Source of the DNA: Manis javanica
Taxonomy: Eukaryota > Chordata > Mammalia > Pholidota > Manidae
Length of the DNA: 64,000 nucleotides
NCBI RefSeq assembly: GCF_040802235.1
Contig: NC_133164.1
Coordinates: 90,140,302 to 90,204,301 of the forward strand
Reading direction: 5' to 3'
This document shows, piece by piece, positions 12,182 through 64,000 of this stretch. The first letter of the stretch is position 1; the number at the start of each line of letters is the position of its first letter. A program made the translations under genes and the position numbers. The notes under the pieces are model-generated. The model did not search any database. It had not been told where the DNA came from and was given only the letters and a program-made list of their open reading frames with translations.

Positions 12182-12715
12182 CTATAAATAAGAAAAAATA
12201 TATACAATGAGTGGGGTTTTAAGTAATCTTTAAGTAAGACCACAAACATTTTTGTATCTACTGACTTCATGTTTCCTTCCAGCTGCCTTAAACAAAGCAA
12301 ATAGTATGTTCCATGGGGATCATCAGGGGCCTACTACATGCAGGGCACATAAGTTGGTACAGAAGAAGAAAGGATAAAGCCTTATCCTAGAAAGGCCTAT
12401 ATCCGACAAGGAAAAGAGCTGGGACTAAAAAAAAAAGTTTATAGGAATAAATAATATAATGGTTAGGCAAAGGAGCTGATAAGGAGGACTGATAGCACTG
12501 GCTATAAAACATTAACATTTCCTTTCATGATATTCTATGCCAGATAAATAATTTTATTCAAAAGCGAAGTGCTAAAAAGAGACAAAAATAATTCTGCAGT
12601 TGACATGATGGCTAATATATCTGGAGGCAGCATTAACTCAACTTCCTCTAATCACTATTTGGATAAATGTTTAGCATAAATAGGTTTTTAAACTCTCAAA
12701 AATGTGTCCCTATGG
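12182..12715. other. OSBPL1A intron; possible L2 remnant
   Basis: A stretch at about 12320-12420 ('ggcctactacatgcagggcac..') may be an antisense L2 3' end, but it is too short and diverged to be sure. Nothing else recognised. Confidence 0.3.
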
Positions 12716-13025
12716 AGGACCAGCAACTTTTTTTTTTTTTTTAGAGGGCGTCTCTCATATTTATTGATCAAATGGTTGTTAACAACAATAAAATTCTGTA
12801 TAGGGGAATCAATGCTCAATGAACAATCATTAATCCATCTCAAGCCTAATTCTCATCAGTCTCCAATCTTCTGAAGCATAACGAACAAGTTCTTACATGG
12901 TGAATTAATTCTTACATAGTGAATAAGTTCTTACACGGTGAACAGTACAAGGGCAGTCATCACAGAAACTTTCAGTTTTGATCACGCATTATGAACTATA
13001 AACAATCAGAGGACCAGCAACTTTT
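12716..13025 (-). mobile_element. Orphan LTR tail, 5'-truncated retrocopy with TSD
   Basis: Bases 12732-13009 are the reverse complement of the terminal part of the LTR that ends the two chimeric L1s (compare 53150-53420). The same AATAAA, the same last bases before poly(A), and a 15-base T-run at 12728-12742 (the poly(A) tail on the minus strand) are present. A perfect 16-base duplication, AGGACCAGCAACTTTT, flanks it at 12716-12731 and 13010-13025. The ends are those of L1 target-primed reverse transcription (poly(A), 5' truncation, long TSD), not of retroviral integration. Confidence 0.92.
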
Positions 13026-24055: not shown

Positions 24056-24143
24056 CTGGAAGAAAAAAAAAAGACAAAATTAAACTAATAAAGGATTTTT
24101 ACATTACATATGCTTTAATGTTTCTTTTAAAACTTTTAGTTCA

Positions 24144-24515
24144 GGGCGGAGCCAGGATGGCGGCGTGAGTAGAGCAGCAGAAATCTCCTCCCAAAACCAC
24201 ATATATTTATGAAAATATAACAAAGACAACTCTTCCTAGAATAGAGACCGGAGGACACAGGACAACATCCAGACCACATCCACACGTGCGAGAACCCAGC
24301 ACCTCCCGAAGGGGCAGCCCGAGCCAGGCCACGCTGACAGCAACAGCAGAGATAAACTCCATAGCAGCCAGGCAGGAAGCAGAAGCCCTGTCTGCACACA
24401 GCTACAGAGCACAAGCCACTAGAGGTCGCTATTCTCCCAGGAGGCCACAAACCAACAAAAAGGGAAGTTCTTCCAGCCGTCACTAGTCCCAGCTCTACAA
24501 ACTATTCCTATCACC
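24144..24515 (+). promoter_or_regulatory. L1 5' UTR, spliced form
   Basis: Begins with GGGCGGAGCCAGGATGGCGGCG, the diverged form of the YY1-type motif found at L1 starts. It is about 950 bases shorter than in copy 2. The join at 24314/24315 (GAAGGGG|CAGCCC) falls exactly where copy 2 has GAAGGGG|GTAAGA (donor, 45185) and GGAGGAG|CAGCCC (acceptor, 46134). The missing block includes the whole monomer array, so this copy most likely comes from a spliced L1 RNA. Confidence 0.85.
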
Positions 24516-25370
24516 ATGAAAAGACAAAATTACAGGCAAACCAAGATCACAGAGACACCAGAGAAGGAGACAGACCTAACCAGTCTTCCTGACAAAGAAT
24601 TCAAAATAAAAATCATAAACATGATCACAGAGATGCAGAGAAATATGCAAGAGAAATGGGATGAAGTATGGAGGGAGATCACAGATGCCAGAAAGGAGAT
24701 TACAGAAATGAAACAAACTCTGGAAGGATTTATAAGCAGAATGGATAAGATGCATGAGGCCATTGATGGAATTGAAACCAGAGAACAGGAACACATAGAA
24801 GCTGACATAGAGAGAGATAAAAGGATCTCCAGGAATGAAACAATATTAAGAGAACTGTGTGACCAATCCAAAAGGAACAATATCCATATTATAGGGGTAC
24901 CAGAGGAAGAAGAGAGAGGAAAAGGGACGGAAAGTATCTTGGAAGAAATAATTGCTGAAAACTTCCCCAAACTAGGGGAGGAAATAATTGAACAGACCAC
25001 AGAAATACACAGAACCCCCAACAGAAAGGATACAAGGAGGACAACACCAAGACACATAATAATTAAAATGGCAAGGATCAAGGACAAGGAAAGAGTTTTA
25101 AAGGTAGCTAGAGAGAAAAAGGTCACCTATAAAGGAAAACCCATCAGGCTAACATCAGACTTCTCGACAGAAACCCTACAGGCCAGAAGAGAATGGCATG
25201 ATATATTTAATGCAATGAAACAGAAGGGCCTTGAACCAAGGATACTGTATCCAGCACGACTATCATTTAAATATGATGGCAGGATTAAACAACTCCCAGA
25301 CAAGCAAACGCTGAGGGAATTTGCTTCCCACAAACCACCTCTACAGGGCATCCTACAGGGACTGCTCTAG
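24516..25370 (+). CDS. L1 ORF1 protein, intact (284 aa)
   Basis: RNA-binding chaperone of the L1 ribonucleoprotein particle. The frame is open from ATG 24516 to the stop at 25368, giving 284 residues (human ORF1p is 338). Order: a basic N-terminus (MKRQNYRQTK), a coiled coil at about residues 30-110 with heptad-like Ile/Met/Leu spacing (trimerisation), the RRM starting at RELCDQSKRNNIHIIGVPEE (about 115), and the C-terminal domain with REKKVTYKGKPIRLTSDFS and the REW/ILYPA blocks. It is the only ORF1 in the window that is open to the end. ORF2 of the same element is dead, so any protein could act only in trans. Confidence 0.93.
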   Translation: MKRQNYRQTKITETPEKETDLTSLPDKEFKIKIINMITEMQRNMQEKWDEVWREITDARKEITEMKQTLEGFISRMDKMHEAIDGIETREQEHIEADIERDKRISRNETILRELCDQSKRNNIHIIGVPEEEERGKGTESILEEIIAENFPKLGEEIIEQTTEIHRTPNRKDTRRTTPRHIIIKMARIKDKERVLKVAREKKVTYKGKPIRLTSDFSTETLQARREWHDIFNAMKQKGLEPRILYPARLSFKYDGRIKQLPDKQTLREFASHKPPLQGILQGLL

Positions 25371-25564
25371 ATGGGAGCACCCCAAAAAAGAGCACAGAAC
25401 AAAACACACAACATATGAAGAATGGAGGAGGAGGAATAAGAAGGGAAAGAAGAAAAGAATCTCCGGACGGTGTATATACAGCTCAATAAGCGAGCTAAGT
25501 TAGGCAGTAAGATACTAAAGAAGCTAACCTTGATCCTTTGGTAACCACGAATCTAAAGCCTGCA
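25371..25564 (+). other. L1 inter-ORF spacer
   Basis: A roughly 190-base spacer between the two L1 frames. It is longer than in human L1 and is conserved in copy 2 (47233-47427). Confidence 0.7.
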
Positions 25565-28500
25565 ATGGCAATAAGCACATATCTCTCAATACTCACGCTA
25601 AATGTAAATGGACTTAATGCACCAATCAAAAGACACAGAGTAATAGAATGGATAAAAAAGCAAGACCCATCTATATGCTGCTTACAAGAAACTCACCTTA
25701 AACCCAAAGATAAGCATAGACTAAAAGTCAAGGGATGGAAAAACATACTTCAGGCAAACAACAGTGAGAAGAAAGCAGGGGTTGCAGTACTAATATCAGA
25801 CAAAATAGACTTCAAAACAAAGAAAGTAACAAGAGATAAGGAAGGACACTACATAATGATAAAGGGCTCAGTCCAACAAGAGGATATAACCATTCTAAAT
25901 ATATATGCACCCAATACAGGAGCACCAGCATATGTGAAGCAAATACTAACAGAACTAAAGAGGGAAATAGATTGCAATGCATTCATTTTAGGAGACTTCA
26001 ACACACCACTCACCCCAAAGGATAGATCCACCGGGCAGAAAATAAGTAAGGACACACAGGCACTGAACAACACACTAGAACAGATGGACCTAATAGACAT
26101 CTATAGAACTCTACATCCAAAAGCAACAGGATATACATTCTTCTCAAGTGCACATGGAACATTCTCCAGAATAGACCACATACTAGCCCACAAACAGAGC
26201 CTCAGCAAAATCCAAAATATTGAAATTCTACCAACCAATTTTTCAGACCACGAAGGTATAAAACTAGAAATAAATTCTCCAAAGAAAACAAAAAGGCTCA
26301 CAAACATATGGAGGCTTAACAACATGCTCCTAAATAATCAATGGATCAATGAACAAATCAAAATAGATATCAAGGAATATATAGAAACAAATGACAACAA
26401 CAACACAAAGCCCCAACTTCTATGGGACGCAGCGAAAGCAGTCCTAAGAGGAAAGTATATAGCGATCCAGGCACACTTGAAGAAGGAAGAACAATCTCAA
26501 ATGAATAGTCTAACATCACAATTATAGAAATTGGAAAAAGAAGAACAAATGAGGCCTAAAGTCAGCAGAAGGAGGGACATAATAAAGATTAGACAAGAAA
26601 TAAACAAAATTGAGAAGAATAAAACAATAGCAAAAATCAATGAAACCAAGAGCTAGTTCTTTGAGAAAATAAACAAAATAGATAAGCCTCTAGCCCAACT
26701 TATTAAGAGAAAAAGAGAATCAACACAAATCAACGGAATCAGAAATGAGAATGGAAAAATCACGACAGACTCCACAGAAATACAAAGAATTATTAAAGAC
26801 TACTATGAAAACCTATATGCCAACAAGCTGGAAAACTAGAAGAAATGGACAACTTCCTAGAAAAATACAACCTTCCAAGACTGACCAAGGAAGAAACACA
26901 AAAGTTAAACAAACCAATTACGAGCAAAGAAATTGAAATGGTAATCAAAAAACTACCCAAGAACAAAGCACCCGGGTGGATGGATTTACCTCAGAATTTT
27001 ATCAGACATACAGAGAAGATATAATACCCATTCTCCTTAAAGTTCTCCAAAAAATAGAAGAGGAAGGAATACTCCCAAATGCATTCTATGAAGCCAACAT
27101 CACCCTAATACCAAAACCAGGCAAAGACCCCACCAAAAAAGAAAATTACAGACCAATATCCCTGATCAATGTAGATGCAAAAATACTCAATAAAATATTA
27201 GCAAACAGAATTCGACAGCATATCAAAAGGATCATATACCATAGTCAAGTGGGATTCATCCCAGGGATGCAAGGATGGTACAACACTCGAAAATCCATCA
27301 ACATCATCCACCACATCAACAAAAAGAAAGACAAAAACCACATGATCATCTCCATAGATGCTGAAAAAGCATTTGACAAAATTCAACATCCATTCATGAT
27401 AAAAACTCTCAGCAAAATGGGAATAGAGGGCAAGTTCCTCAACATAATAAAGGCCATATATCATAAACCCACAGCCAACATTATACTGAACAGCGAGAAG
27501 CTGAAAGCTTTTTCTCTGAGATCAGAAACTAGACAGGGATGCCCACTCTCCCCACTGCTATTTAACATAGTACTGGAGGTCCTAGCCACAGCAATCATAC
27601 AAAACAAAGAAATACAAGGAATCCAGATTGGTAAAGAAGAAGTTAAACTGTCACTATTTGCAGATGACATGATATTGTACATAAAAAAACCCCTAAAGAC
27701 TCCACCCCAAAACTACTAGAACTGATATCTGAATACTGCATAGTTGCAGGATACAAAACTAACACACAGAAATCTGTGGCTTTCCTATACACTAACAATG
27801 AACCAATAGAAAGAGAAATAAGGAAAACAATTCCATTCACCATTGCATCAAAAAGAATAAAATACCTAGGAATTAATCTAACCAAATAAGTGAATGACCT
27901 ATACTCTGAAAACTACAAGTCACTCTTAAGAGAAATTAAAGGGGACACTAAAAATGGAAACTCATTCCTTGCTCATGGCTAGGAAGAATCAGTATTGTCA
28001 AAATGGCCATCCTGCCCAAAGCAATATACAGATTTGATGCAATCCCTATCAAATTACCAGCAACATTCTTCAATGAATTGGAACAAATAATTCAAAAATT
28101 CATATGGAAACACCAAAGACCCCGAATAGCCAAAGCAATCCTGAGAAAGAAGAATAAAGTAGGGGGGATCTCACTCCCCAACTTCAAGCTCTACTACAAA
28201 GCCATAGTAATCAAGACAATTTGGTACTGGCACAAGAACAGAGCCACAGACCAGTGGAACAGATTAGAGACTCCAGACATTAACCCAAACATATATGGTC
28301 AATTAATATTTGATAAAGGAGCCATGGACATACAATGGCAAAATGACAGTCTCTTCAACAGATGGTGTTGGCAAAACTGGACAGCTCCATGTAGGAGAAT
28401 GAAACTGGACCATTGTCTAACCCCATATACAAAAGTAAATTCAAAATGGATCAAAGACCTGGATGTAAGTCATGAAACCATTAAACTCTTGGAAAAAAAC

Positions 28501-29387
28501 ATAGGCAAAAACCTCTTAGACATAAACATGAGTGACCTCTTCTTGAACATATCTCCCCGGGTAAGGAAAACAACAGCAAAAATGAACAAGTGGGACTATA
28601 TTAAGCTGAAAAGCTTCTGTACAGCAAAAGATAACATCAATAGAACAAAAAGAAACCCTACAGTATGTGAGAATATTTTCATAAATGACAGATCCGATAA
28701 AGGCTTGACGTCCAAAATATATAAAGAGCTCACACACCTCAACAAACAAAAATAAAATAATCCAATTAAAAACTGGGCAGAGGAACTGAACAGACAGTTC
28801 TCCAAAAAAGAAATACAGATGGCCAACAGACACATGAAAAGATGCTCCACATCACTAATTATCAGAGAAATGCAAATTAAAACTACAATGAGGTATCACC
28901 TCACACCAGTAAGGATGGCTGCCATCCAAAAGACAAACAACAACAAATGTTGGCGAGGCTGTGGAGAATGGGGAACCCTCCTACACTGCTGGTGGGAATG
29001 TAAATTAGTTCAACCATTGTGGAAAGCAATATGGAGGTTCATCAAAATGCTCAAAACAGACTTACCATTTGACTCAGGAATTCCACTCCTAGGAATTTAC
29101 CCCAAGAATGCAGCAATCAAGTTTGAGAAAGACAGATGCACCCCTATGTTTATCACAGCACTATTTACAAAAGCAAGAATTGGAAGCAACCTAAATGTCC
29201 ATCGGTAGATGAATGGATAAAGAAGATGTGGTACATATACACAATGGAATACTACTCAGCCATAAGAAGAGGGCAAATCCTACCATTTACAGCAACATGG
29301 ATGGAGCTGGAGGGTATTATGCTCAGTGAAATAAGCCAAGCGGAGAAAGAGAAATACCAAATGATTTCACTCATCTGTGGAGTATAA
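25565..29387 (+). pseudogene. L1 ORF2 (endonuclease-reverse transcriptase), broken
   Basis: ORF2 encodes the nicking endonuclease and reverse transcriptase. The ATG at 25565 opens MAISTYLSILTLNVNGLN. Endonuclease motifs are visible: LNVNGL, LQETHLK, IYAPN, GDFNTPL, SSAHGTFSRIDH and SDH. The RT active site FADD is intact at 27657-27668. The C-terminal zinc-knuckle-like block ([18 protein letters not shown]) is near 28950. The frame is broken by TAG at 26525, TAG in place of Trp near 26653, a one-base deletion near 26836, an indel near 26970, a frameshift near 27690, TAA near 27888 and TAA at 28753. The frame ends at 29387. Not functional. Confidence 0.92.
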
Positions 29388-29720
29388 GAACAAAGGAAAA
29401 ACTGAAGGAACAAAACAGCAGTGGAATCACAGAACCCAAGAATGTACTAACAAGTACCAAAGGGAAAGGGACTGGGGAGGATGGGTGGTTAGGGAGGGAT
29501 AAGGGGGCACGGGAAGAAGAAAGGGGGTATTAAGATTAGCATGCATGGGGGGGGGGGAGAAAGGGGAGCACTGCACATCACAGAGAAGACAAGTAGTGAT
29601 TCTACAACATCTTGCTATGCTGATGGACAGTGACTGTAAAGGGGTTTATATGGGGGACCTGGTATAGGGGAGAGCCTAGTAAACATAATATTCTTCATGT
29701 AAGTGTAGATTAATGATAAC
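29388..29720 (+). other. L1 3' UTR with G-rich tracts
   Basis: Starts after the ORF2 stop and contains several G-runs (29470-29570, including a run of about ten Gs), as is usual for mammalian L1 3' UTRs. It ends in 'gattaatgataac' plus A-run, without an AATAAA. The non-chimeric L1s in this window have CTTAATAAA in the same place. Confidence 0.8.
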
Positions 29721-30109
29721 AAAAAAAAAAAAGAAAGAAAGAAAGAGAAGGCAGATTACTCCCTGATAGGATAAAACTAACTGTAAATCAATGATTAATG
29801 CATGCTTTAAATATCCTTAATTTTGATCACTTAAAGGGTGTCAGATGATTGGCTATGGATGTACACTTTTCTGATAATATTACTTTCTCTTAAAAAAAAA
29901 AAAGCAGTTCCTGTGTGGTGACCTCCAATGAGTTCTACACAATGGTATAAAGGGTATATCAAAGTGTGGACAAAGGGTCTGTTTGTGTTTATACAGAGGA
30001 ACAAAGCCTAATTTGGCTACCCAGAAAATGAACTAAGATATGATATGAAAAAGAACTTCCAACATCAGCACTCTCTGGAAGAGTCATACCAGAAGATGAT
30101 CATCAAAAA

Positions 30110-30620
30110 AACCTCAACAAAGATCAAGGCGATGCTGCAGTTGTAGCTGCATTCATCCCACCGGTTCCTGCACTTGCCATTGGAATGAAGAAGGAGATAT
30201 CTAAGCTGGCCTGTGCATACAGTAAAACAACAAATCTGACTGGATCTATACTGTTGGAACTCAACCAAGAATTAGGAGAAGTGCAAATTGTGGTGCTCCA
30301 AAATCTTACAGCTACAGACTACTGTTAAAAGAACATATGGGATGTGAACAGTTCCCAGGAATGGGTTGTTTTAATTTGTCTGATTTCTCTCAGACTGTTC
30401 AAGTACAGTTGGAGAATATCCACTATATCATAGACAAATTTTCACAAATGCCTAGGGTGCCTAACTGGTTTTCTTGGCTTCACTGGAGATGGCTGGTAAT
30501 TATAGATCTGCATTGGTTATGTAACTGCATTCCTATTGTGTTAATGTGTGTGCGCAATTTAATTAGTAGTTTAAAAACCTATACATGCTTAAGTTACTCT
30601 ACAAGAAGATATGTCAAAGA
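30110..30620 (+). pseudogene. Endogenous retrovirus env transmembrane remnant
   Basis: The plus strand shows the pattern of a retroviral TM subunit: a hydrophobic Ala/Val-rich start, a heptad-rich stretch, an LQN block near 30300, then a Cys-rich loop and a Trp-rich membrane-proximal stretch (FSWLHW) before a hydrophobic segment. The loop has the spacing of a CX6CC motif, but the first Cys of the pair is Gly. Stops and a frameshift interrupt it. The SU subunit is absent. The gamma-type assignment is from motif spacing only. It is a fossil carried by the L1 and cannot make an envelope protein. Confidence 0.7.
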
Positions 30621-31207
30621 AATAATCAATCTTCCCATGTTTTCTTCCATCTGCTACCTCTATAGCTTTTCTTCTTCCTTCCTAATTACAATCCTTAAAT
30701 AGAATTTGTGCCTCATATCGAATTCACCGAGTATCATAACTCCTCCAAGTGGTAAAGATACCTCAAGACAAATGCTGGGCATAGAAGCCACAGGGCATAA
30801 ACCTGCAAAGAAGTAAAAAGCTCACCTTTTCAAACAATATGGCTTCTCTCTCACTTACCAATTTTACATTTCCCTGTATGGCCCCGGAAGATGACTGGTT
30901 AGCCAGAGATGGGTAAGATTCCTCAAGGGAGGAACAACCTAAGACAGGCACAGTTGCAGGAGGACCATCAGGTGAGAAATTGAGGATCAACAGAGGTGAG
31001 GCTTAGAACCTCAGCCCCCCTGTTTTGAGAGAAATCTTCTGCAGCCATGGATGTATTATTGCCCTTGTCTAGCTTGGATTAACACATAGTCTACAGGCAC
31101 ACACCTGATCATCTACATTTGCTCTCTTACAACACTAAACTATGTTTTCTACCTTTATCTTGCATCTACCTACCACTTCAGCATTTTATTTAAAATAATA
31201 ATAATAA

Positions 31208-31433
31208 TAAAGGGAGAAATGTGGGATTCACATATAAATTAAGTATAAAAATCAAATGAATATTCATATTTGACCCGATTGTGTATAGTTCATAATGCGT
31301 GATCAAAACCGAAAGTTTCTGTGATGACTGCCCTTACACTGTTCACCATGTAAGAACTTATTCACTATGTAAGAATTTGTTCAGCATGTAAGAACTTGTT
31401 CGTTATGCTTCAGAAGATTGGAGACTGATGAGA
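31208..31433 (+). repeat. ERV polypurine tract and partial 3' LTR
   Basis: A purine tract (AAAGGGAGAAA) is followed at 31220 by TGTGGGATTC, the expected TG start of an LTR. About 210 bases of U3 follow, including three near-copies of a 19-base unit with ATGTAAGAA. It stops in poly(A) before the AATAAA that copy 2 has. Confidence 0.8.
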
Positions 31434-31456
31434 AAAAAAAAAAAACTTTTAGTTCA

Positions 31457-44775: not shown

Positions 44776-45184
44776 AGCCTCCCTATCTGGATGGGTACCA
44801 TAACCAGTAATTTCAAAATTGCACTCATCTCCTATCAACCAACAAAATAAAAAACAGAAATGACCCAATATTTGAATTTTTGCATAATACAGATTTGTCT
44901 CTTAATGAGGAAACTAAAATCATCAACACTCCTCAAATAAATTTACACAGAATGTAATTTCAATTAGATGCCAACAATATTTTCACTAAGAACATTTTAA
45001 AAAGCAATTTTAGGGGCGGAGCCAAGATGGCGGCGTGAGTAGAGCAGTGGAAATCTCCTCCCCAAAACACATAGAGCTATGAAAATATAACAAAGAAAAA
45101 TCTTCCTAAAATAGAGACCACAGGACACAGGACAACATCCAGACCACATCCACATCTGCAAGAACCCAGTGCCTTGTGAAGGGG

Positions 45185-46134
45185 GTAAGATACAAGCCCT
45201 GACCCTGCGGGACCCGAGCGCCCCGCCCCCTGGCTCCCGGCGGGTGGAAAGAAACCGGAGCGGTTTTTTCTTTTTTTGGCGAGTGCTTTTTGGAAGCCTT
45301 AAAGGGACAGGGACCCCATTCCTAGGGAGGCAGGGTGGCGGGACCGGTGAGCAGGTGCCTGGGACCGGCACTTGAGGACGGAGGAAATTGCGCGTTTTTC
45401 CCCTTTTTTTTTCTCTTTTTGGCGAGTGCTTTTTGGAAGCCTTAAAGGGACAGGGACCCCAGTGCTAGGGAGGCAGGGTGGCGGGACTGGTGAGCGGGTG
45501 CCTGGGACAGGCACCCGAGGACAAAGAATATCCTGCGTTTTTCCCTGCGGGACCTGTGGGCGGGTGCCTGAGACCCGCACCTGAGTACGGACGAAATCGC
45601 ACGTTTTTCCCCTTTTTTTTCTCTTTTTGGCGAGTGCTTTTTGGAAGCCTTAAAGAGACAGGGACCCTGGTGCTAGGGAGGAAGGGGGGCGGGACTGGTG
45701 AGCTGGTGCCTGGGACCGGCGCCTGAGGACAAAGAATATCGCGTGTTTTTCCCTGCGGGACCAGTGGGTGGGTGCTTTTTGGAAGCCTTGAAGGGACAGG
45801 GACCCTGGTGCTAGGGAGGCAGGGCAGCAGGACCAGTGAGCGGGTGCCTCGGACCGGGGCCTAAGGACAAAAAAAAAATCAAGTGCTTTTTCCTTATTTT
45901 TTTAAAATTTTTTTTCTGTTCCCTCTCTCATTGTTGCTGTTGTTGTTTTGGTTTGGAGAGTGCTTTTTGGAAGTCTTAAAGGGGCAGGAGAGGTCACTTA
46001 GACCAGAGGCAGGGAATCTGGGGATCTCTGGGCACTCTAACCCCCAGGGCAGCAGGGAGCACAGAGGCCACTTACGGAGATAAACAGCCTCCCAGCCGCT
46101 TCCCCTCCAACGGGGCTCCACCATTTTGGAGGAG
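45185..46134 (+). other. Inferred 5' UTR intron
   Basis: A 950-base block starting GTAAGA after GAAGGGG and ending GGAG before CAGCCC. Copy 1 has GAAGGGG joined directly to CAGCCC, so these ends obey GT-AG with one base of ambiguity. The L1 at 57801 keeps the same donor (GGGGGTAAGATAC, intron start about 57974). The tract before the acceptor is only moderately pyrimidine-rich. Confidence 0.8.
45263..46000 (+). repeat. 5' UTR monomer-like tandem array
   Basis: About five imperfect units. Each has a T-rich start, 'ggcgagtgctttttggaagcc', 'ttaaagggacagggacc', a 'gctagggaggcaggg' block, 'gagcgggtgcctgggacc' and an AAGGACAAAGAA or GGACGGA block. Units begin near 45263, 45386, 45603, 45745 and 45884, with a partial unit at 45537. 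The L1 at 57801 has one recognisable unit ('gagtgctttttgaaagtcttaaagggac', near 58215), so the array looks expanded in the younger lineage. Confidence 0.85.
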
Positions 46135-46341
46135 CAGCCCCAGCCAGGCCATGCACAAAGCAACAGCGGAGATAAACCCCATAGCAACTGGGCAGGAAGC
46201 AGAAGCCCTGTCTGCACACAGCTGCCCAGCACAAGCCACTAGAGGTCGCAATTCTCCCAGGTGAGGAAGGCCACAAACCAACAAGAAGGGAAGCTCTTCC
46301 AGCGGTCACTTGTACCAGCTCTGAACACTATCTCTATCACA

Positions 46342-47232
46342 ATGAAAAGACAAAACTACAGGCAGACAAAGATCACAGAGACAACACCTGAGAAGGAGAC
46401 AGACCTAACCAGTCCTCCTGAAAAAGAATTCAAAATAAAAATCATGAACATGCTGACAGAGATGCAGAGAAAAATGCAAGAGCAATGGGATGAGATGCAG
46501 AGAAAAATGCAAGAGCAGTGGGATGAAGTCCGGAGGGAGATCACAGATGTCAGGAAGGAGATCACAGAAGTGAAACAATCCCTGGAAGGATTCATAAGCA
46601 GAATGGATAAGATGCAAGAGGCCATTGAAGGAATAGAAGCCAGAGAACAGGAACATATAGAAGCTGACATAGAGAGAGATAAAAGGATCTCCAGGAATGA
46701 AACAACACTAAGAGAAATCTGTGACCAATACAAAAGGAATAATATTCATATTATAGGGATACCAGAAGAGGAAGAAAGAGGAAAAGGGATAGAAAGTCTC
46801 TTTGAAGAAATAATTGCTGAAAACTTCCCCAAACTGGGGGAGGAAATAATCGTACAGACGATGGAATTACACAGAACCCCCAACAGAAAGGATCCAAGGA
46901 GAACAACAGCAAGACACATAGTAATTAAAATGGCAAGGATCAAGGACAAGGAAAGAGTTTTAAAGGCATCTAGAGAGAAAAAGGTCACCTATAAAGGAAA
47001 ACCCATCAGGCTAACATCCGACTTCTCGACAGAAACCCTACAGGCCAGAAGAGAATGGCATGATATACTTAATGCAATGAAACAGAAGGGCCTTGAACCA
47101 AGGATACTGTATCCAGCATGACTATCATTAAAATATGATGGCGGGATTAAACAATTCCCAGACAAGCAAAAGCTGAGGGAATTTGCTTCCCACAAACCAC
47201 CTCTACAGGGCATCCTACAGGGACTGCTCTAA
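46342..47232 (+). pseudogene. L1 ORF1 with a late nonsense codon
   Basis: ATG 46342 opens MKRQNYRQTKITETTPEKET. The coiled coil, RRM (ICDQYKRNNIHIIGIPEEEE) and most of the C-terminal domain are open. At 47119-47121 the codon is TGA where copy 1 has CGA (Arg), a CpG transition, so the protein would end at 260 residues after ILYPA and lose about the last 36 residues. A 33-base tandem duplication in the coiled coil (46459-46491, 46492-46524) adds 11 residues (EMQRKMQEQWD twice). The original stop is at 47230-47232. Confidence 0.9.
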
Positions 47233-47427
47233 ATGGGAGCACCCCTAAAAAGAGCACAGAACAAAACACACAACATATGAAGAATGGAGGAGGAGGAATA
47301 AGAAGGGAAAGAAGAAAAGAATCTCCGGACGGTGTATATAACAGCTCAATAAGCGAGCTAAGTTAGGCAGTAAGATACTAAAGAAGCTAACCTTGAACGT
47401 TTGGTAACCACGAATCTAAAGCCTGCA

Positions 47428-50400
47428 ATGGCAATAAGCACATATCTCTCAATAGTCACCCTAAATGTAAATGGACTTAATGCACCAATCAAAAGACACA
47501 GAGTAATAGAATGGATAAAAAAGCAAGACCCATCTATATACTGCTTACAAGAAACTCACCTTAAACCCAAAGATAAGCATAGACTAAAAGTCAAGGGATG
47601 GAAAAACATACTTCAGGCAAACAACAGTGAGAAGAAAGCAGGGGTTGCAGTACTAATATCAGACAAAATAGATTTCAAAACAAAGAAAGTAACAAGAGAT
47701 AAAGAAGAACACTCCATAATGATAAAGGGCTCAGTCCAACAAGAGGATATAACCATTCTAAATATATATGCACCCAATACAGGAACACCAGCATATGTGA
47801 AGCAAATACTAACAGAACTAAAGAGGGAAATAGACTACAATGCATTCATTTTAGGAGACTTCAACACACCACTCACCCCGAAGGATAGATCCACCAGGCA
47901 GAAAATAAGTAAGGACATGGAAGCACTGAACAACACACTAGAACAGATGGACCTAATAGACATCTATATAACTCTACATCCAAAAGCAACAGGATATACA
48001 TTCTTCTCAAGTGCACATGGAACATTCTCCAGAATAGACCACATAATAGCTCACAAAAGGAGCCTCAGTAAACTCCAAAATATTGAAATTCTACCAACCA
48101 ATTTTTCAGACCACAAAGGTATAAAAGTAGAAATAAATTCTACAAAGAAAACAAAAAGGCTCACAAACACATGGAGGCTTAACAACATGCTACTAAATAA
48201 TCAATGGACCAATGAACAAATCAAAATAGAGATCAAGGAATATATAGAAACAAATGACAACAACAACACTAAGCCCCAACTTCTGTGGGATGCAGCGAAA
48301 GCAGTATAGTATATACTATACTATACTGAGGAAAGTATATAGCAATCCAGGCACACTTGAAGAAGGAAGAACAATCCCAAATGAATAGTCTAACATCACA
48401 ATTATCTAAACTGGAAAAAGAAGAACAAATGAGGCCTAAAGTCAGCAGAAGGAGGGACATAATAAAGATCAGAGAAGAAATAAACAAAATTGAGAAGAAT
48501 AAAACAGTAGCAAAAATCAACAAAACCAAGAGCTGGTTCTTTGAGAAAATAAACAAAATAGATAAGCCTCTAGCCCAACTTATTAAGAGAAACAGAGAAT
48601 CAACACAAATCAACATAATCAGAAATGAGAATGGAAAAATCACGACAGACTCCACAGAAATACAAAGAATTATTAAAGACTACTATGAAAACCTATATGC
48701 CAACAAGCTGGAAAACCTAGAAGAAATGGACAACTTCCTAGAAAAATACAACCTCCCAAGACTGACCAAGGAAGAAACACAAAAGTTAAACAAACCAATT
48801 ACGAGCAAAGAAATTGAAACGGTAATCAAAAAGCTACCCAAGAACAAAACCCCGGGACCGGACGGATTTACCTCGGGATTTTATCAGACACACAGAGAAG
48901 ACATAATACCCATTCTCCTTAAAGTGTTCCACAAAATAGAAGAAGAGGTAATACTCCCAAACTCATTCTATGAAGCCAACATAACCCTAATACCAAAACC
49001 AGGCAAAGACCCCACCAAAAAAGAAAATTACAGACCAATATCCCTGATGAATGTAGATGCAAAAATACTCAATAAAATATTAGCAAACAGAATTCAACAG
49101 TATATCAAAAGGATCATACACCATGACCAAGTGGGATTCATCCCAGGGATGCAAGGATGGTACAACAATCGAAAATCCATCAACATCATCCACCACATCA
49201 ACAAAAAGAAAGACAAAAACCGCATGATCATCTCCATAGATGCTGAAAAAGCATTTGAAAAAATTCAACATCCATTCATGATAAAAACTCAGCAAAATGG
49301 GAATAGAGGGCAAGTACCTCAACATAATAAAGGCCATATATGATAAACCCACAGCCAGCATTATACTGAACAGCGAGAAGCTGAAAGCATTTCCTCTGAG
49401 ATCGGGAACCAGACAGGGATGCCCACTCTCCCCACTGTTATTTAACATAGTACTGGAGGTCCTAGCCACGGCAATCAGATGAAACAAAGAAATACAAGGA
49501 ATCCAGATTGGTAAAGAAGTTAAACTGTCACTATTTGCAGGTGATATGATACTGTACATAAAAAACCCTAAAGACTCCACTCCAAAACTACTAGAACTGA
49601 TATCAGAATACAGCAAAGTTGCAGGGTACAAAATTAACACACAGAAATTTGTAGCTTTCCTATACACTAACAATGAATCAATAGAAAGAGAAATCAGGAA
49701 AACAATTCCATTCACCATTGCATCAAAAAGAATAAAATACCTAGGAATAAACCTAACCAAAGAAGTGAATGACTTATACTCTGAAAACTACAAGTCACTC
49801 TTAAGAGAAATTAAAGGGGACACTAATAAATGGAAAGAATTAATATCATCAAAATGGCCATCCTGCCCAAAGCAATATACAGATTTGATGCAATCCCTCT
49901 CAAATTACCAGCAACATTCTTCAATGAATTAGAACAAATAATTCAAAAATTCATATGGAAACACCAAAGACCCCGAATAGCCAAAGCAATCCTGAAAAAG
50001 AAGAATAAAGTAGGGGGGATCTCACTCCCCAACTTCAAGCTCTACTACAAAGCCATAGTAATCAAGACAATTTGGTACTGGCACAAGAACAGAGCCACAG
50101 ACCAGTGGAACAGATTAGAGACTCCAGACATTAACCCAAACATATATGGTCAATTAATATTTGATAAAGGAGCCATGGACATACAATGGCAAAATGACAG
50201 TCTCTTCAACAGATGGTGCTGGCAAAACTGGACACCTACATGTAGGAGAATGAAACTCGACCATTGTCTAACCCCATATACAAAGGTAAACTCAAAATGG
50301 ATCAAAGACCTGAATGTAAGTCATGAAACCATTAAACTCTTGGAAAAAAACATAGGCAAAAACCTCTTAGACATAAACATGAGTGACCTCTTCTTGAACA

Positions 50401-51239
50401 TATCTCCCCGGGCAAGGAAAACAACAGCAAAAATGAGCAAGTGGGACTACATTAAGCTGAAAAGCTTCTGTACAGCGAAAGACACCATCAATAGAACAAA
50501 AAGGAACCCTACAGTATGGGAGAATATATTTGAAAATGACACATCTGATAAAGGCTTGACGTCCAGAATATATAAAGAGCTCACACGCCTCAACAAACAA
50601 AAAACAAATAACCCAATTAAAAAATGGGCAGAGGAACTGAACAGACAGTTCTCTAAAAAAGAAATACAGATGGCCAACAGACACATGAAAAGATGCTCCA
50701 CATCGCTAATTATCAGAGAAATGCAAATTAAAACTACAATGAGGTATCACCTCACACCAGTAAGGATAGCTGCCATCCAAAAGACAAACAACAACAAATG
50801 TTGGCGAGGCTGTGGAGAAAGGGGAACCCTCCTACACTGCTGGTGGGAATGTAAATTAGTTCAACCATTGTGGAAAGCAGTATGGAGGTTCATCAAAATG
50901 CTCAAAACAGACTTACCATTTGACCCAGGAATTCCACTCCTAGGAATTTACCCTAAGATCGCAGCAATCAAGTTTGAGAAAGACAGATGCACCCCTATGT
51001 TTATCGCAGCACTATTTGCAAATAGCCAAGAATTGGAAGCAACCTAAATGTCCATCAGTAGATGAATGGATAAAGAAGATGTGGTACATATACACAATGG
51101 AATACTACTCAGCCATAAGAAGTGGAAAAATCCAACCATTTGCAGCAACATGGATGGAGCTGGAGAGTATTATGCTCAGTGAAATAAGCCAAGCGGAGAA
51201 AGAGAAATACCAAATGATTTCACTCATCTGAGGAGTATA
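47428..51239 (+). pseudogene. L1 ORF2 with mutated RT active site
   Basis: ATG 47428 opens MAISTYLSIVTLNVNGLN. The endonuclease is fully open (LQETHLK, IYAPN, GDFNTPL, SSAHGTFSRIDH, SDHKG). At 48303-48322 a palindromic insertion brings TAG at 48307. Further breaks: a frameshift near 49290, TGA near 49480, and a deletion near 49838-49845 where copy 1 has extra sequence. The RT motif FADD is FAGD here (49534-49545), so a catalytic Asp is lost. From 49830 to 51047 a long open stretch covers the thumb and the zinc-knuckle-like [22 protein letters not shown] at 51229 ends it just early. Confidence 0.92.
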
Positions 51240-51572
51240 GGAACAAAGGAAAAACTGAAGGAACAAAACAGCAGCGGAATTACAGAACCCAAAAATGGAC
51301 TAACAGGTACCAAAGGGAAAGGAACTGGGGAGGATGGGTGGGCAGGGAGGGATAAGGGTGGGGAAGAAGAAGGGGGGTATTAAGATTAGCATGCATGGCG
51401 GGGAGGGAGAAAGGGGAGGGTGGGCTGCACAACACAGAGAGGACAAGTAGTGACTCTACCACATTTTGCTAAGCTGATGGACAGTAACCGTGATGTGGTT
51501 GTTAGGGGGGACCTGATATAGGGGAGAGCATAGTAAACATAGTATTCTTCATGTAAGTATAGATTAAAAATT
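51240..51572 (+). other. L1 3' UTR with G-rich tracts
   Basis: G-runs at about 51314-51420. It ends 'gtaagtatagattaaaaatt' plus A-run, with no AATAAA, as in copy 1. Confidence 0.8.
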
Positions 51573-51959
51573 AAAAAAAAAAAAAGAAAGAAAGAAAGAA
51601 AGAAAAGGGGGATTACTCCTTGATAGGATAAAACTATTGGTAAATCAAAGATCAATGCATGCTTTAAATATCCTTAATGTTGATCACTTAAAGGGTGTCA
51701 GATGATCAGCTATAGAGGTACTCTTTTCTGATAATATTCCTTTCTCTTAATAAAAAAAAAAAAAGCAGTTACTGTGTGCTGACTTCCAATGAGTTCTGCA
51801 CAGTGGTATAGAGGGCATGTCAAAGTGTGGGCAAAGGGTCTGTTTATTTCTATGCAGAAGATCAAGGCCTAGCTTGGATACCCAGAAAATGAACTAAGAT
51901 ACGATATGAGGAGGAGCTTCTGGCATCAGCACTCTCTGGAGGACTTGTGCCGGGGGATG

Positions 51960-52455
51960 ATCATCAAAAAGGCTCCACAGGGATCTGGATGATGCTGCGG
52001 TTGTGGCTGCATCCAGCCCACCGTCTCCTGGACTTGCCATAGGAATGAGGAGGGAGATGTTTAGGCTGGCATGTGCATACAGTGAGACAACGAATTTGAC
52101 CGGATCTGTACTGTTGGAACTCAACTAGGAGTTGGGAGGGGTGCAAGGTGTAGCACTCCAAAATCTTATGACTATAGACTATCTACGGTTAAAAGAACAT
52201 ATGGGATGTGAACAGATCCCAGAAATGGGCTGCTTTAATTTGTCTGATTTCTCTCAGACTGTTCAAGTACAGTTGGACAATATCCATCATATCATAGACA
52301 AATTTTCACAAATGCCTAGGGTGCCTAAATGGTTTTCTTGGCTTCACTGGAGATGGATGGTAATTATAGATCTGCATTGGTTATGTCACCATATTCCTAT
52401 TATGTTAATATGTGTGTGCAAATTAGTTAGTAGTTTAAAACCTATACATACTTAA
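51960..52455 (+). pseudogene. Endogenous retrovirus env transmembrane remnant
   Basis: Same remnant as in copy 1 (30110-30620). A hydrophobic Ala-rich start and heptad region are broken by a stop near 52125. The LQN block is near 52155. A loop with Cys spacing like CX6CC follows, with one Cys missing, then a Trp-rich membrane-proximal stretch and a hydrophobic segment, open to 52455. The SU subunit is absent. Being part of the L1 tail, it was copied by reverse transcription in cis with L1. No functional envelope is encoded. Confidence 0.72.
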
Positions 52456-53085
52456 GGTACTCTACAAGAAGATATGTCAAAGAAATAATCAATCCTCCCA
52501 TGTTTCCTTCCATATACTACATCTGTAGCTTTTCTTCTTTCTTCCTAATTACAACCCTTAAATAGAATTCGTGCCTCATATCGAATTTACCGAGTATCAT
52601 AATTCCTCCAGGTGGTAAAGATACCTCAAGACAAGTGCTGGGCGTAGAAGCCACAGGGCATAAATCTGCAAAGAAGTAAAAAGCTAACCTTTTCAAACAA
52701 TATGGCTTCTCTCTCACTTACCAACTTTACATTTCCCTGTATGGCCCCGGAAGATGACTGGTTAGCCAGAGACGGGTAAGATTCCTCAAGGGAGGAACAA
52801 CCTAAGACAGGCACAGTCGCAGGGGGGCCATCAGGTGAGAATTTGGGGATCAACAGAGGTGAGGCTCAGAACCTCACCCCCCCCCTGCTTTGAGAGAAAT
52901 CTTCTGCATCCTGGATGTCTTGCTGCCCTTGTCTAGCCTGGATTAATACTTAGTCCATAGGCACACACCTGATCATCTGATCATCTACATTTGCCCTCTT
53001 ACAGCACTAAACTATGTTTTCTACCTTTATCTTGCATCTACCTACCACTTCAGCATTTTATTAAAAATAATAATAATAATAATAA

Positions 53086-53420
53086 TAGAGGGAGAAATGT
53101 GGGATCAACATATAAATCAAGTACAAAAATCAAATGAATATTCATATTTGACCTGATTGTTTATAGGTCATAATGCGTGATCAAAACTGAAAGTTTCTGT
53201 GATGAATGCCCTTGTACTGTTCACCATGTAAGAATTTATTCACTATGTAAGAATTCGTTCACCATGTAAGAACTTGTTCGTTATGCTTCAGAAGATTGGA
53301 GACTGATGAGAATTAGGCTTGAGATGGATTAATGATTGTACATTGAGCATTGACCCCCCTATACTGAATTTTATTGTTGTTAACAACCATTTGACCAATA
53401 AATATGAGAGATGCCCTCTA
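53086..53420 (+). repeat. ERV polypurine tract and 3' LTR (U3-R)
   Basis: Purine tract AGAGGGAGAAA, then TGTGGGATCA as LTR start at 53098. U3 includes a 19-base unit (like CACCATGTAAGAACTTGTT) in three near-copies at about 53220-53282. AATAAA at 53397-53402 is followed after 18 bases by poly(A) at 53421. The end at the R poly(A) site and the absence of U5 are what a polyadenylated RNA would give, not an integrated provirus. Confidence 0.88.
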
Positions 53421-53441
53421 AAAAAAAAAAAGCAATTTTAA

Positions 53442-57800: not shown

Positions 57801-58795
57801 GAGAGAGGAGCCAAGATGGCAGTGTGAGTAGGGCAGAGGAAATCTCCTCCCCAAACCATATATTCTTTTGAAAATACAACAAATGCAACTACGCCTAAGA
57901 GAGAGACCAGAAGATACAGTACAACAGCCAGGTTACATCTACATCTGCAAGAACTCAGCATCTCACAAAGGGGGTAAGATACAAAGCCACAATCCAGCAG
58001 GACATGAGCACTCTCCCCACCACAGCTCACTGGTGGGAGGAAAGGAGTCAGAGTGAGGAGGGTGTGGAAGCACAAGAATGCTAAATAACCAGCCCTAGTA
58101 ATCTGCCCTGGGAGCACAGGCACACATCGCATGGTGTACTAGATATTAGAGAAAGGGAAAAGTAAAATCTGCAAGTGGATTCCCACAGCCAGCTCCCATG
58201 GGACAAAAGAAAAGTGAGTGCTTTTTGAAAGTCTTAAAGGGACAAGTGCTTCACAGCTGGATGGAATTTCCCTGGCACACTCAGTCCAGCAGGCTGGGAA
58301 TCCTGAGGAACTTCAGGCATGCTAACCCCCTGAGTGGCAATGCAGCTCTGAAGGCCCTCATGGCAATAAGCAGCCTGCCATTTGTTCCACCCAGCCGATG
58401 CGGCCCCGCCACAGTGACAGAGCAGCCAGAAAGCAGCCCCACCCACAGAAACTGCCCAGAGTCTCCTCATAGCATGCAGCTACGAGGGCCAGACCCACAG
58501 GCCACCACCATTATGCAGCTGCCCGGCACAGATAGAGGAAGCTGGGGCAAGGTGCGAAGGGGTGCCCTTCTCACAGGAGAGCACACCCAGCACTCCTGCC
58601 ACTCCCTACAGGGCTCTGGGCTACCCCAAGGGCCTCCCTGCCAACAGCAGCTCAGGGGGTTAACCCAGAGGCTGCTCCTGGTCTGCAAGTAACTGACACA
58701 GGCAGTGGAGAAGGGCAAGGTGACCAGCAAGCAGGAAGGGACTTTGTTCTCCCAGCTGACACATGCATCACCTGCCTATGACTTCCTCTATCACC
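57801..58795 (+). promoter_or_regulatory. L1 5' UTR
   Basis: About 1.0 kb with the YY1-type motif CCAAGATGGC at 57811-57820 and the conserved splice donor GGGGGTAAGATAC (about 57970-57982). One monomer-like unit is present near 58205-58255, so there is no tandem array. Confidence 0.8.
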
Positions 58796-59646
58796 ATGAA
58801 AAGGCAGAAGAATTTGGTCCAGTCAAGAATCACCCAGACAACCCCTGAGAGAGGGCCTGGGGAGATATATATAACCAATCTTCCTGAAAAAGAATTCAAA
58901 ATAAAGGTCATAACCATGCTGATGGAACTGCAGGGAAATACGCAAGAGCTAAGTGATGAAGTCAGGAGGGAGATTACACAAATGCAACAATCTCTGGAAG
59001 GACTTAAGAGCAGGCTGGATGAGGTGCAAGAGACTGTTAATGGAATAGAAATCACAGAACAGGAATACAGAGAGGCTGAGGCAGAGAGAGATAAAAGGAT
59101 CTCCAGGAATGAAAGAATATTAACATAACTGTGTGACCAATCCAAACGGAACAATATTCACGTTATAGGGGTACCAGAGGAAGAAGAGAGAGAAAAGGGA
59201 TAGGAAGTATATTTAAAGAAATAATTGCTGAAAACTTCCCCAATGTTGGGGAGGAAATAGTCTCTCAGAACATGGAAGCACACAGATCTCCCAACACAAG
59301 GGACCCAAGGAGGAACAACACCAAGACATACAATAATTAAAATGCAAAGATCAAAGACAAGGACAGAGTACTAAAGGCAGCCAGAGAGAGAAAAAAAGAT
59401 CACATACAAAGGAAAACCCATCAGGCTATCATCAGACTTCTCAACAGAAACCTTACAGGCCAGAAGACAATGGCATGATATATTTAATGCAATGAAACAG
59501 AAGGGCCTTGAACCAAGAATACTGTATCCAGCACAATTATCATTTAAATATGAGGAGAGACTAAACAATTCCCAGACAAGCAAAAGTTGAGGGAATCTGC
59601 CACCCACAAATGACCTCTACAGGGTATTTTAAAGGGACTGCTCTAG
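58796..59646 (+). pseudogene. L1 ORF1 (decayed)
   Basis: ATG 58796 opens MKRQKNLVQSRITQTTPERG. The coiled coil is open to RISRNERIL, then TAA at 59126. The RRM (LCDQSKRNNIHVIGVPEEEE) follows in frame, with another TAG near 59201 and frameshifts near 59310 and 59380. The end of the frame is at 59644. Confidence 0.9.
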
Positions 59647-59959
59647 ATGGAAGCACTCCTAAGGCTAAATAGGTGTCACCACAGAAAATAAAATCACAGC
59701 AAAGAAAACAGACCAACCAAATACTAACTAAAGGCAAAAAATAAAATAAACTATTCACAAAATCAGTCAAAGGAAACACAAAAGAGTACAGAATAAAACA
59801 CCTAACATATAAAGAATGGAGGATGAGGAATAAGAAGGGAGAGAAATAAAGAATCATCAGACTGTGTTTATAATAGCTTAATAAGTGAGTTAAGTTAGAT
59901 GGTTAGATAGTAAAGAAGCTACCCTTGAACCTTTGGTAACCACAAATCTAAAGCCTGCA

Positions 59960-62900
59960 ATGGTAATAAATACATATCTTTCAATAATCACCCTAAATGT
60001 AAATGGACTGAGTGCACCAATCAAAAGACAGAGAGTAATAGAATGGATAAAAAAGCAAGACCCATCTATATGCTGCTTACAAGAGACTCACCTCAAACCC
60101 AAAGACATACAAAAACTAAAAGCGAAGGGATGGAAAAAGATACTTCATGCAAACGATAGTGAGAAAAAAGCAGGTGCTGCAGTACTTGTATCAGACAAAA
60201 TAGACCTTAAAGCAAAGAAAGTAACAAGAGATAAAGAAGGACATTACATAATGATAAAGGGCTCAACCCAATAAGAGGATATAACCATTATAAATATATA
60301 TGCACCCAATACAAGAGCACCAACATACCTGAAACAAATACTAACAAAACTAAAGGAGGAAATAGAATGCAATGCATTCATTTTAGGAGACTCCAACACC
60401 TCACTCACTCCAAAGGACAGATCCACCAGACAGAAAATAAGTAAGGACACAGAGACACTGAACAACACACTAAAACAGATGGACCTAATAGACATCTTCA
60501 GAACTCTACACCCAAAAGCCACAGGATACACATTCTTCTCAAGTGCACATGGAACATTTTCCAGAGTAGATCACATACTAGGCCACAAAAAGAGCCTCAG
60601 CAAAATCCAAAATATTGAAATTCAACCAACCAACTTCTCAGAACACAAAGGCATAAAACTAGAAATAAACAGTACAAAGAAAACAAAAAGGCTCACAAAC
60701 ACATGGAGGCTTAACAACATGCTCCTAAATAATCAACGGATCAATGACCAAATTAAAACAGAGATCAAGCAATATATGGAGACAAAGGACAACAACAGCA
60801 CGAAGCCCCAACTTCTGTGGGATGCAGCGAAGGCAGTTCTAAGAGGAAAGTAGCAATTCAGGCCCATTAAAGAAGGAAGAACAATCCCAAATGAATACTC
60901 TAAAGTCACAATTATTGAAACTTGGAAAAGAAGAACAAATGAGGTCCAAAGTCAGCAGAAGGAGGGACATAATAAAGATAAGAGAAGAAATAAATAAAAT
61001 TGAGAAGAAGAAAACAATAGAAAAAAAATCAATGAAACCAAGAGCTGGTTCTTTGAGAAAATAAACAAAATAGCTAAGCCTTCAGCCAGACTTATTAAGA
61101 GAAAAAGAGAATCTACACACATCAACAGAATCAGAAATGAGAAAGAAAAAATCACAATGGGCCCCACAGAAATACAAAGAATTATTAGAGAATACTATGA
61201 AAATATATAGGCTAACAAGCTGAAAAACCTAGAAGAAATGGACAACTTCCTAGAAAAATACAACCTTCCAAGACTGACCAAGGAAGAAACAGAAAATCTA
61301 AACAGACCAATTACCAGCAATGAAATTGAATTGGTAATCAAAAAATTACCCAAGAACAAAACCCCAGGGTCAGATGGATTCACCACTGAATTTTATCAGA
61401 TATATAGAGAAGACATAATACCCAGTCTCCTTAAAGTTTTCCAAAAAGTAGAAGAGGAGGGAATACTCCCAAACTCATTCTATGAAGCCAGCATCACTCT
61501 AATACCAAAACCAGGCAAAGACCCAACCAAAGAAGAAAATACAGACCAATATCCCTGATGATCATAGATGCAAAAATACTCAGCAAATATTAGCAAACTG
61601 AATTCAAAAATACATCAAGAAGATCAAACACCATGATCAAGTGGGATTCATCTCAGGGATGCAAGGATGGTACAACATTCAAAAATCCATCAACATCATC
61701 CACCACATCAACAAAAAGGACAAAAACCACATGATCATCCCCATCGATGCTGAAAAAGCATTCAATAAAATTCAACATCCATTCATGATAAAAGCTCTCA
61801 ACAAAATGGGTATAGAGGGCAAGCACCTCAACATAATAAAGGCCATATATGACAAACCCACAGCCAACATCATACTCAACAGCAAGAAGCTGAAAGCTTT
61901 TCACCTAAGATAGGGAACAAGACAGGGATGCCCACTCTCCCCACTGTTATTCAATATAGTACTGGAGGTCCTAGCCATGGCAATCAGGCAAAACAGAAAT
62001 ACAAGGCACCCAGATTGGCAAAGAAGTCAAACTGTCACTATTGGCAATGACATGAAATTGTGCATAAAAAACCCTAAATTATCCACTCCAAAACTACTAG
62101 ATCTAATATCTGAATTCAGCAAAATTGCAGGATACAAAATTAATACATAGAAATCTGTCTTTCCAATACAATAACGATGAACTAGCAGAAAGAGAAATCA
62201 GGAAAACAATTCCATTCACAATTGCATCAAAAAGAATAAAATACCTAGGAAAAAAACTTAACCAAGGAAGTGAAAGACCTATACCTTGATAACTACAAGA
62301 CATTCTTAAGAGAAATTAAAGAGGACACTAACAAATGGAAATTCACCCCATGCTCTTGGCTAGGAAGAATTAATATTGTCAAAACAGCCATCCTGCCCAA
62401 AGCAATATACAGATTCAATGCAATCCCTATCAAAATACCAACAGCATTCTTCAATGAACTAGAGCAAATACTTCTAAAATTCATTATGGAACCACAAAAG
62501 ACAAATAGTCAAAGCAATCCTGAGAAGGAAGAATAAAGTGGGGGGATTACACTCCCCAAGTTCAAGCTCTACTACAAAGCCACAGTAATCAAGACAATTT
62601 GGTACTGGCACAAGAACAAACCCACAGACCAGTGGAACAGACTAGAAAGCCCAGATATAAACCCAAGTATATATGGTCAATTAATATACAATAAAGGAGC
62701 CATGGATATACAATGGGAAAATGACAGCCTCTTCAGCAGCTGGTGTTGGCAAAACTGAACGGCTACATGCAAGAGAATGAAACTGGATTATTGTCTAACC
62801 CCACACACAAAAGTAAACTCAAAATGGATAAAAAATGTGAATGTAAATCATGAAACCATAAAACTCTTAGAAGAAAACATAGGCAAAAATCTCCTCAGTA

Positions 62901-63760
62901 TAAACAGGAGCAACTTTTTCCTGAATGCATCTCCTTGGGCAAGGGAAACAAAAGCAAAAATGAACACATGGGACTACATCATGCTGAAAAGCTTCTGTAC
63001 AGCAAAGGACACCATCAGCAGAACAAAAAGGCATCCTACAGTATGGGAAAATATATTTGTAAATGACATATCCAACAAGGGGGTAAAATCCGAAACATAA
63101 AAAGAACTCACATGCCTGAACACCCAAAAAGCAAATAACCCTATTTAAAAATGGGCCTAGAATATGAACAGACACTTCTCCAAAGGAGAAATTCATATGG
63201 TCAACAGGCACATGAAAAGATGCTCCACATCACTAATTATCAGGGAAATGTAAATTAAAACCACAATGAGATATCACCTCACATCAGTTACTCTGGGCAA
63301 CATAGAAAAGACTAGGAACACAAATGCTGGTGAGGATGCAGAGAAAGGGGAACCCTCCTATACTCCTGTTGGGAATGTAAACTAGTTTAACCATTGTGGA
63401 AAGCAACATGGAAGTTCCTCAAAAAACTAAAAATAGAAATACCATTTGACCCAGAAATTCCACTCCTAGGAATTTACCCCAAAAAAAACAACTTCTCAGA
63501 TTCAAAAAGACATATGCACCCTTATGTTTATTGCAGCACTATTTACAATAGCCAAGATATGGAAGCAACCTAAGTGTCTGTCAGTAGATAAATAAAGATG
63601 TGGTACATATACACAATGGAATACCATTCAGCCATAAGAAAGAAACAAATCCTACCATTTGCAACAGCATGAATGGAGCTTGAGGGTATTAGGCTCAGTG
63701 AAATAAGTCAGGCAGAGAAAGACAAATACCAAATGATTTCCCTCATTTGTGGAGTATAAC
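59960..63760 (+). pseudogene. L1 ORF2 (decayed)
   Basis: The ATG at 59960 starts the endonuclease (LNVNGLSAPIK, LQETHLK, IYAPN, SSAHGTFSRVDH). Stops include TAA at 60272, and frameshifts lie near 60850, 61210, 61540 and 61910. The RT active-site region near 62036 reads as disrupted ('ctattggcaatgacatg', a lost base in the FADD codons). Late blocks are present to the ORF2 end near 63755. Not functional. Confidence 0.9.
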
Positions 63761-64000
63761 AACAAAGCAAAACTGAATGCACAAAATAGCAGCAGACTCA
63801 CAGACTTCAAGAAGGGACTAGTGGTTACCAAAGAGGAGGGGTTGGGGAGGATGGGTGGAGAGGGAGGGTGAGGGGGATTGTGGAGTATCATGATTGGTGC
63901 ACATGGTGTGTGCGGGTCACGGGGAAGACAGTGTAGCTCAGAGAAGACAAATAGGGACTCTGTGGCATCTTACTAGACTGATGGACAGTGACTGCAATGG

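Follow-up and report, generated by a model that had tools for sequence, protein, structure and literature searches.

Layout of the composite element

We analyzed a window of 64,000 nucleotides from the pangolin Manis javanica (contig NC_133164.1, positions 90,140,302 to 90,204,301 of the forward strand), a single 64-kb stretch rich in L1 repeats, in which an L1 retrotransposon continues directly into a tail with retroviral features. All coordinates count from the first nucleotide of this window. The composite of L1 and tail, here called copy 1, occupies 45013–53431 on the plus strand. Its L1 part (45013–51572) comprises the 5′ untranslated region (UTR), the open reading frames ORF1 and ORF2, and the 3′ UTR, and its 5′ end looks complete. 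In Pfam, the frame over ORF1 is assigned to Transposase_22 (E = 6.3e-24); for pieces of ORF2, there are matches to Exo_endo_phos (1.7e-22) and RVT_1 (1.9e-18), whereas a third ORF2 piece has no family match. Since ORF2 is split over several frames, copy 1 is not an intact element.

An A-rich stretch with GAAA repeats (51573–51606), also found in the second composite described below, marks the boundary between L1 3′ UTR and tail. It is followed by a first tail part without database match (51607–52000), by a remnant of the transmembrane (TM) subunit of a retroviral env (52001–52455, start approximate), and by an interval (52456–53097) ending, by eye, in a purine tract at 53087–53097. The last part (53098–53419) resembles a long terminal repeat (LTR) and would correspond to U3 and to R as far as the poly(A) site, without U5; it carries AATAAA at 53397–53402. 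The poly(A) (53420–53431) begins 17 bases beyond this signal, one fewer than the first-pass annotation had counted, and its last five A's overlap the right target-site duplication (TSD).

This TSD, AAAAAGCAATTTTA, is 14 bases long and repeated exactly at 44999–45012 and 53427–53440 on the plus strand, thereby enclosing L1 and tail together, as the first-pass annotation had described. It lies at TTTT/AAAA, the usual L1 endonuclease site. Among random flank pairs of the window, 26 of 198129 match over at least 14 bases, as do 15 of 99082 when poly(A) runs anchor the pairs; the richness of the window in L1 repeats inflates both background rates.

The same tail occurs in three insertions

The locus had been described as one insertion. 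At least three insertions lie in the window, including a second composite and a truncated tail that had been missed. The second composite, copy 2, spans 24144–31441 on the plus strand. It consists of an L1 (24144–29726), from whose 5′ UTR 950 bases are missing relative to copy 1, followed by the A-rich junction and tail (29727–31432). Its junction is the same as in copy 1, and its tail ends 103 alignment columns short of the position where the poly(A) of copy 1 begins. Around the whole unit lies an exact TSD of 15 bases, AAAACTTTTAGTTCA (24129–24143 and 31442–31456, plus strand), again at TTTT/AAAA. In a BLAST comparison of the window with itself, 24310–31434 aligns with 46130–53312 at 91.8% identity over 7222 columns, unbroken across the junction, and the first 171 bases at the 5′ end of copy 2 align separately to copy 1 (87.7%). 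For the 5′ UTR, the divergence between copies 1 and 2 is taken from BLAST; MAFFT misplaced a large gap there and its row was dropped.

Copy 3 lies on the minus strand (12732–13008) and consists of the tail only, truncated at its 5′ end to the last 0.28 kb plus poly(A). Its poly(A) starts 17 bases after AATAAA (12765–12760), a spacing thus shared by two of the three copies (1 and 3), while copy 2 differs. The flanking 17-base TSD, AAAAGTTGCTGGTCCTC, is found at 13009–13025 on the 5′ side and at 12715–12731 on the 3′ side (both minus strand), and the target site is ACT/AAAA. Thus, all three copies are separate insertions at L1-type targets, and the two composites share one junction.

When the 800-base flanks of copies 1 and 2 are compared by BLAST, no match is found at E 0.01. 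Different exact TSDs together with flanks that lack similarity identify the two composites as separate insertions, and a segmental duplication is thereby rejected. In two independent composites, a single TSD encloses L1 and tail, which supports the insertion of the two parts as one reverse-transcribed RNA. The first-pass annotation had proposed such a joint entry from copy 1 alone, and the second composite bears it out; no TSD around only the L1 or only the endogenous retroviral part is seen in either composite.

An env remnant and an LTR-like end in the tail

In a PDB search, the piece 52129–52452 matches the TM subunit of avian sarcoma/leukosis virus (ASLV) with E = 3.4e-5. A protein search with the TM piece of copy 2 matches 22 clusters among 33 candidates in public sets, which may include ordinary retroviruses. 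A profile of 18 members, built from 16 of the 22 clusters and the two window pieces, reaches 3e-13 against ASLV TM. Judged by these sequence comparisons, the TM of the tail is similar to that of alpharetroviruses. Pfam recognizes neither of the two window TM pieces as retroviral, one being without match and the other assigned to an unrelated family; among the 18 profile members, it assigns two to TLV_coat (best E 0.016) and three to GP41 (best 0.055). The TM remnant is disrupted in both composites, by a stop in copy 1 and by a frame shift in copy 2.

We infer that the part from 53098 derives from an LTR because it has a TG start after a purine tract (near 53087–53099), lies downstream of env and contains AATAAA (53397–53402). 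BLAST of the tail reveals no paired LTR within the window. Searches of the viral contig and genome contig sets with exact LTR patterns and with the TM profile retrieve nothing, and tblastn of the TM piece against phage records gives no match. A resemblance of the first tail part to the C terminus of a retroviral integrase was considered and rejected; PDB searches with two pieces of these first ~390 bases show no integrase or pol match, and Pfam scans of nine tail pieces no integrase match.

Divergence between the composites and relatives outside the window

Copies 1 and 2 have diverged at 155 of 1468 sites (10.6%) in the tail (first part and env region) and at 34 of 327 (10.4%) in the L1 3′ UTR; without CpG, the counts are 155 of 1642 for the tail and 31 of 320 for the 3′ UTR. 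The equal divergence of tail and 3′ UTR fits a common ancestor that already bore both. Further, 18 of 226 sites differ in the LTR-like part, 56 of 744 in ORF1, and 175 of 3779 in ORF2. Sorted by codon position (first/second/third), the differences number 20/10/37 in ORF1, 10/9/14 and 10/10/20 in two parts of ORF2, and 17/15/23 in TM, all of them small counts in which indels may have shifted some frames. Differences in the ORFs lean to third positions and those in TM hardly do, and TM accordingly shows no sign of constraint, as for a passenger. A third ORF under selection in the tail is not supported by these counts or by the broken state of TM in both composites.

Relatives of the junction were sought with a minus-strand reading frame that happens to span it (51389–51673). 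One of 14 candidates matches: P0143, a protein of 140 amino acids from an ENA-derived contig of 836 bases, whose alignment extends to either side of the junction (63 of 77 identical residues). As P0143 spans the same junction, the composite is not an assembly error of this window. For ORF1 of copy 2, all 11 named sequences among the best 17 of 703 matches belong to Manis javanica or M. pentadactyla (63–91% identity), and among the best 120 of 703 matches, the first named one from another genus is a bat sequence at 38%. These relatives of ORF1 by themselves make a pangolin origin of the window very probable.

Probable origin by 3′ transduction

We put at roughly 80% the probability that these insertions belong to a pangolin L1 lineage with a retroviral 3′ tail captured by transcriptional read-through, that is, by 3′ transduction. 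A founder L1 would have been located just upstream of, or within, a co-oriented endogenous retrovirus. The L1 transcript would have run past its own poly(A) region and been cleaved at the retroviral AATAAA, a capture step deduced from the structure of the present copies. The composite RNA would then have been copied to new sites by the L1 enzymes via target-primed reverse transcription, making the tail part of the element, and its daughters would have kept transcribing L1 and tail and using the AATAAA of the tail, which in this way would have become the 3′ end of the lineage.

L1 3′ transduction and small transduction families are already known, and 3′ transductions are put at ~20% (PMC6425141, in excerpt) or ~15% (PMC10883270, in excerpt) of new germline L1 insertions. 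The composites show the features of such an event: one TSD around L1 and downstream sequence, a terminal poly(A), and an internal poly(A) remnant, the A-rich GAAA stretch between L1 and tail being expected in both composites when an old L1 poly(A) is carried along. They also show those of a transduction family, namely a common junction, which P0143 spans as well, and different TSDs. With the same tail in several copies, the picture is that of a lineage that multiplies and not of one chance event. A known process with an unusual outcome, the retention of the tail as 3′ end over several rounds, suffices, and no new mechanism is needed; the first-pass annotation had not named this process.

Four points weigh against this reading. 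First, divergence is uneven along the L1, with only 8 differences among 317 sites between the ORFs and 26 among 206 ahead of ORF1, so that the agreement of tail and 3′ UTR fits joint descent without proving it. Second, P0143 is the sole match among the 14 candidates. Third, the poly(A) of copy 2 starts 103 alignment columns upstream of the AATAAA site, in a region (31410–31446) that contains no AATAAA. Fourth, copy 3 may have arisen by retrocopying of a retroviral mRNA rather than as a truncated composite. The third point also qualifies the role of 3′ end former that the first-pass annotation had assigned to the LTR: copies 1 and 3 end after AATAAA in agreement with it, whereas copy 2, one of the three, argues against a strict dependence on this signal.

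Loss of the L1's own AATAAA was considered as the underlying cause and rejected. The signal is absent from the 3′ UTR of both composites (copy 1 has ATTAAA twice), but only one of the three uncut tail-less L1 ends compared has AATAAA near its A-rich end, as judged by eye, and the composites are thus not set apart.

Size of the proposed lineage and its implications

Copy 1 aside, two further tail-bearing insertions lie in the other ~55.6 kb of the window. If this density is typical, our own arithmetic extrapolates, for a genome of ~2.5 Gb, to between some ten thousand and a few hundred thousand insertions; counting just the other composite lowers the minimum to about a thousand. "Probably many" is the most that one L1-rich window supports. 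The odds seem to us evenly balanced that the copies represent an autonomous pangolin L1 subfamily with a retroviral LTR as its 3′ end and thousands of copies or more, in which the LTR poly(A) signal took over L1 3′ end formation and the LTR spread without retroviral integration.

Alternatively, the copies could belong to one small transduction family with a few dozen members, comparable to those in humans and concentrated in this window by chance, which we consider unlikely. The largest human transduction family known by 2019 has 14 members (PMC6425141, in excerpt), and the 14 junction candidates yielded only one further junction-spanning protein, as a small family would predict. Two composites and one tail within 64 kb would be very unlikely with a few dozen copies genome-wide, and the 22 protein clusters of the TM remnant in public sets point to a larger number, though ordinary retroviruses may be among them.

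A large lineage would mean that L1 can retain a captured retroviral end over many rounds of copying. It would bear on the beginnings of composites such as SVA and on a possible dependence of L1 fitness on how strong the poly(A) signal is. Moreover, LTR sequences in this genome would have been spread by L1 enzymes, and LTR counts used for dating retroviral activity may then partly count L1 insertions.

Alternative origins of the junction

The capture could instead have occurred by template switching or RNA joining. An L1 enzyme copying a retroviral mRNA would have switched to an L1 RNA at its poly(A), and the chimera would have founded the lineage. The direct succession of L1, A-rich stretch, and tail, with no clearly non-retroviral genomic flank recognized in between, would suit such a jump, and L1 chimeras with other RNAs are documented (PMC13174262, in excerpt). 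The chimeras in the excerpted part of that source join the other RNA 5′ of L1, however, which is the reverse order. Read-through is far more frequent, and the first ~390 tail bases, which match no retroviral family in the PDB and Pfam searches, could be genomic flank, a feature explicable by read-through only. We therefore regard template switching as distinctly improbable.

Two nested insertions would imply that an L1 entered an old retrovirus at both loci and that the outer match is no genuine TSD. They have a precedent of sorts in the pangolin provirus ERV-Gamma.b9-Mpen with its L1 between env and 3′ LTR (PMC12584738, in excerpt), but are scarcely credible: in both composites, the exact TSD encloses L1 and tail as one unit at an L1-type target site, and the event would have to occur twice, with the same junction, at two unrelated loci with dissimilar flanks. 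A read-through RNA copied as one unit accounts for the shared junction, the TSDs, and the A-rich stretch inside the composites.

Comparison with known systems

SVA elements are moved by L1 enzymes, and their 3′ end is an env/LTR piece that ends after the LTR AATAAA. Their SINE-R part derives from an LTR element (PMC13174262, in excerpt). The tail of the composites would be comparable if its putative LTR supplies the 3′ end, which lies 17 bases after AATAAA in two of three copies. SVA is non-coding and contains variable number tandem repeat and Alu-like parts, whereas the body of the pangolin composites is an L1 that matches the ORF1 and ORF2 families.

The human chr11/chr3 L1 transduction family resembles the present case in that L1 and downstream sequence moved as one RNA, with separate TSDs and a tail that marks descent (PMC6425141, in excerpt). 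According to the same excerpt, it has 14 members and its retroviral part, from HERV-H, is a 5′ transduction; in contrast, the pangolin composites carry a ~1.8 kb tail with an env TM remnant and an LTR-like 3′ end, and the tail occurs three times in 64 kb.

ERV-Gamma.b9-Mpen, compared by description only, is a pangolin case of an L1 that precedes an LTR, as a founder would have to (PMC12584738, in excerpt). As excerpted, that provirus is of the gamma lineage with the L1 after env, whereas in the composites TM follows the L1 and is similar to the TM of alpharetroviruses. ARTenvV of antelopes shares with the composites an env sequence moved by L1 enzymes, a 14-base TSD, and an A tail (PMC9604959, in excerpt); unlike them, it is presented in the excerpted part of that source as a lone mRNA retrocopy not joined to L1. 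Searches of open-licence paper listings showed no L1 lineage ending in an env TM/LTR piece; the pangolin repeat libraries (Dfam, Repbase) may contain its parts.

Further observations in the window

The 5′ UTR of copy 1 contains about four imperfect tandem units of roughly 140–210 bases each (45253–45913), which resemble the promoter monomers of some L1s. In the same region, the 950 bases missing from copy 2 (between 24314 and 24315, corresponding to 45185–46134 in copy 1) begin with GTAAGA and end with AG. This gap looks as if a spliced L1 RNA may have been inserted; it may also reflect a deletion at a short shared sequence. The tail of copy 1 carries a short duplication at 52969–52983 and three tandem copies of a 19-base unit at 53219–53285. 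An Rfam scan of the window gives no match. Finally, a further L1 with a 5′ end, cut by the end of the window, lies at 57807–64000 and is 85% identical to copy 1 over 4.1 kb.

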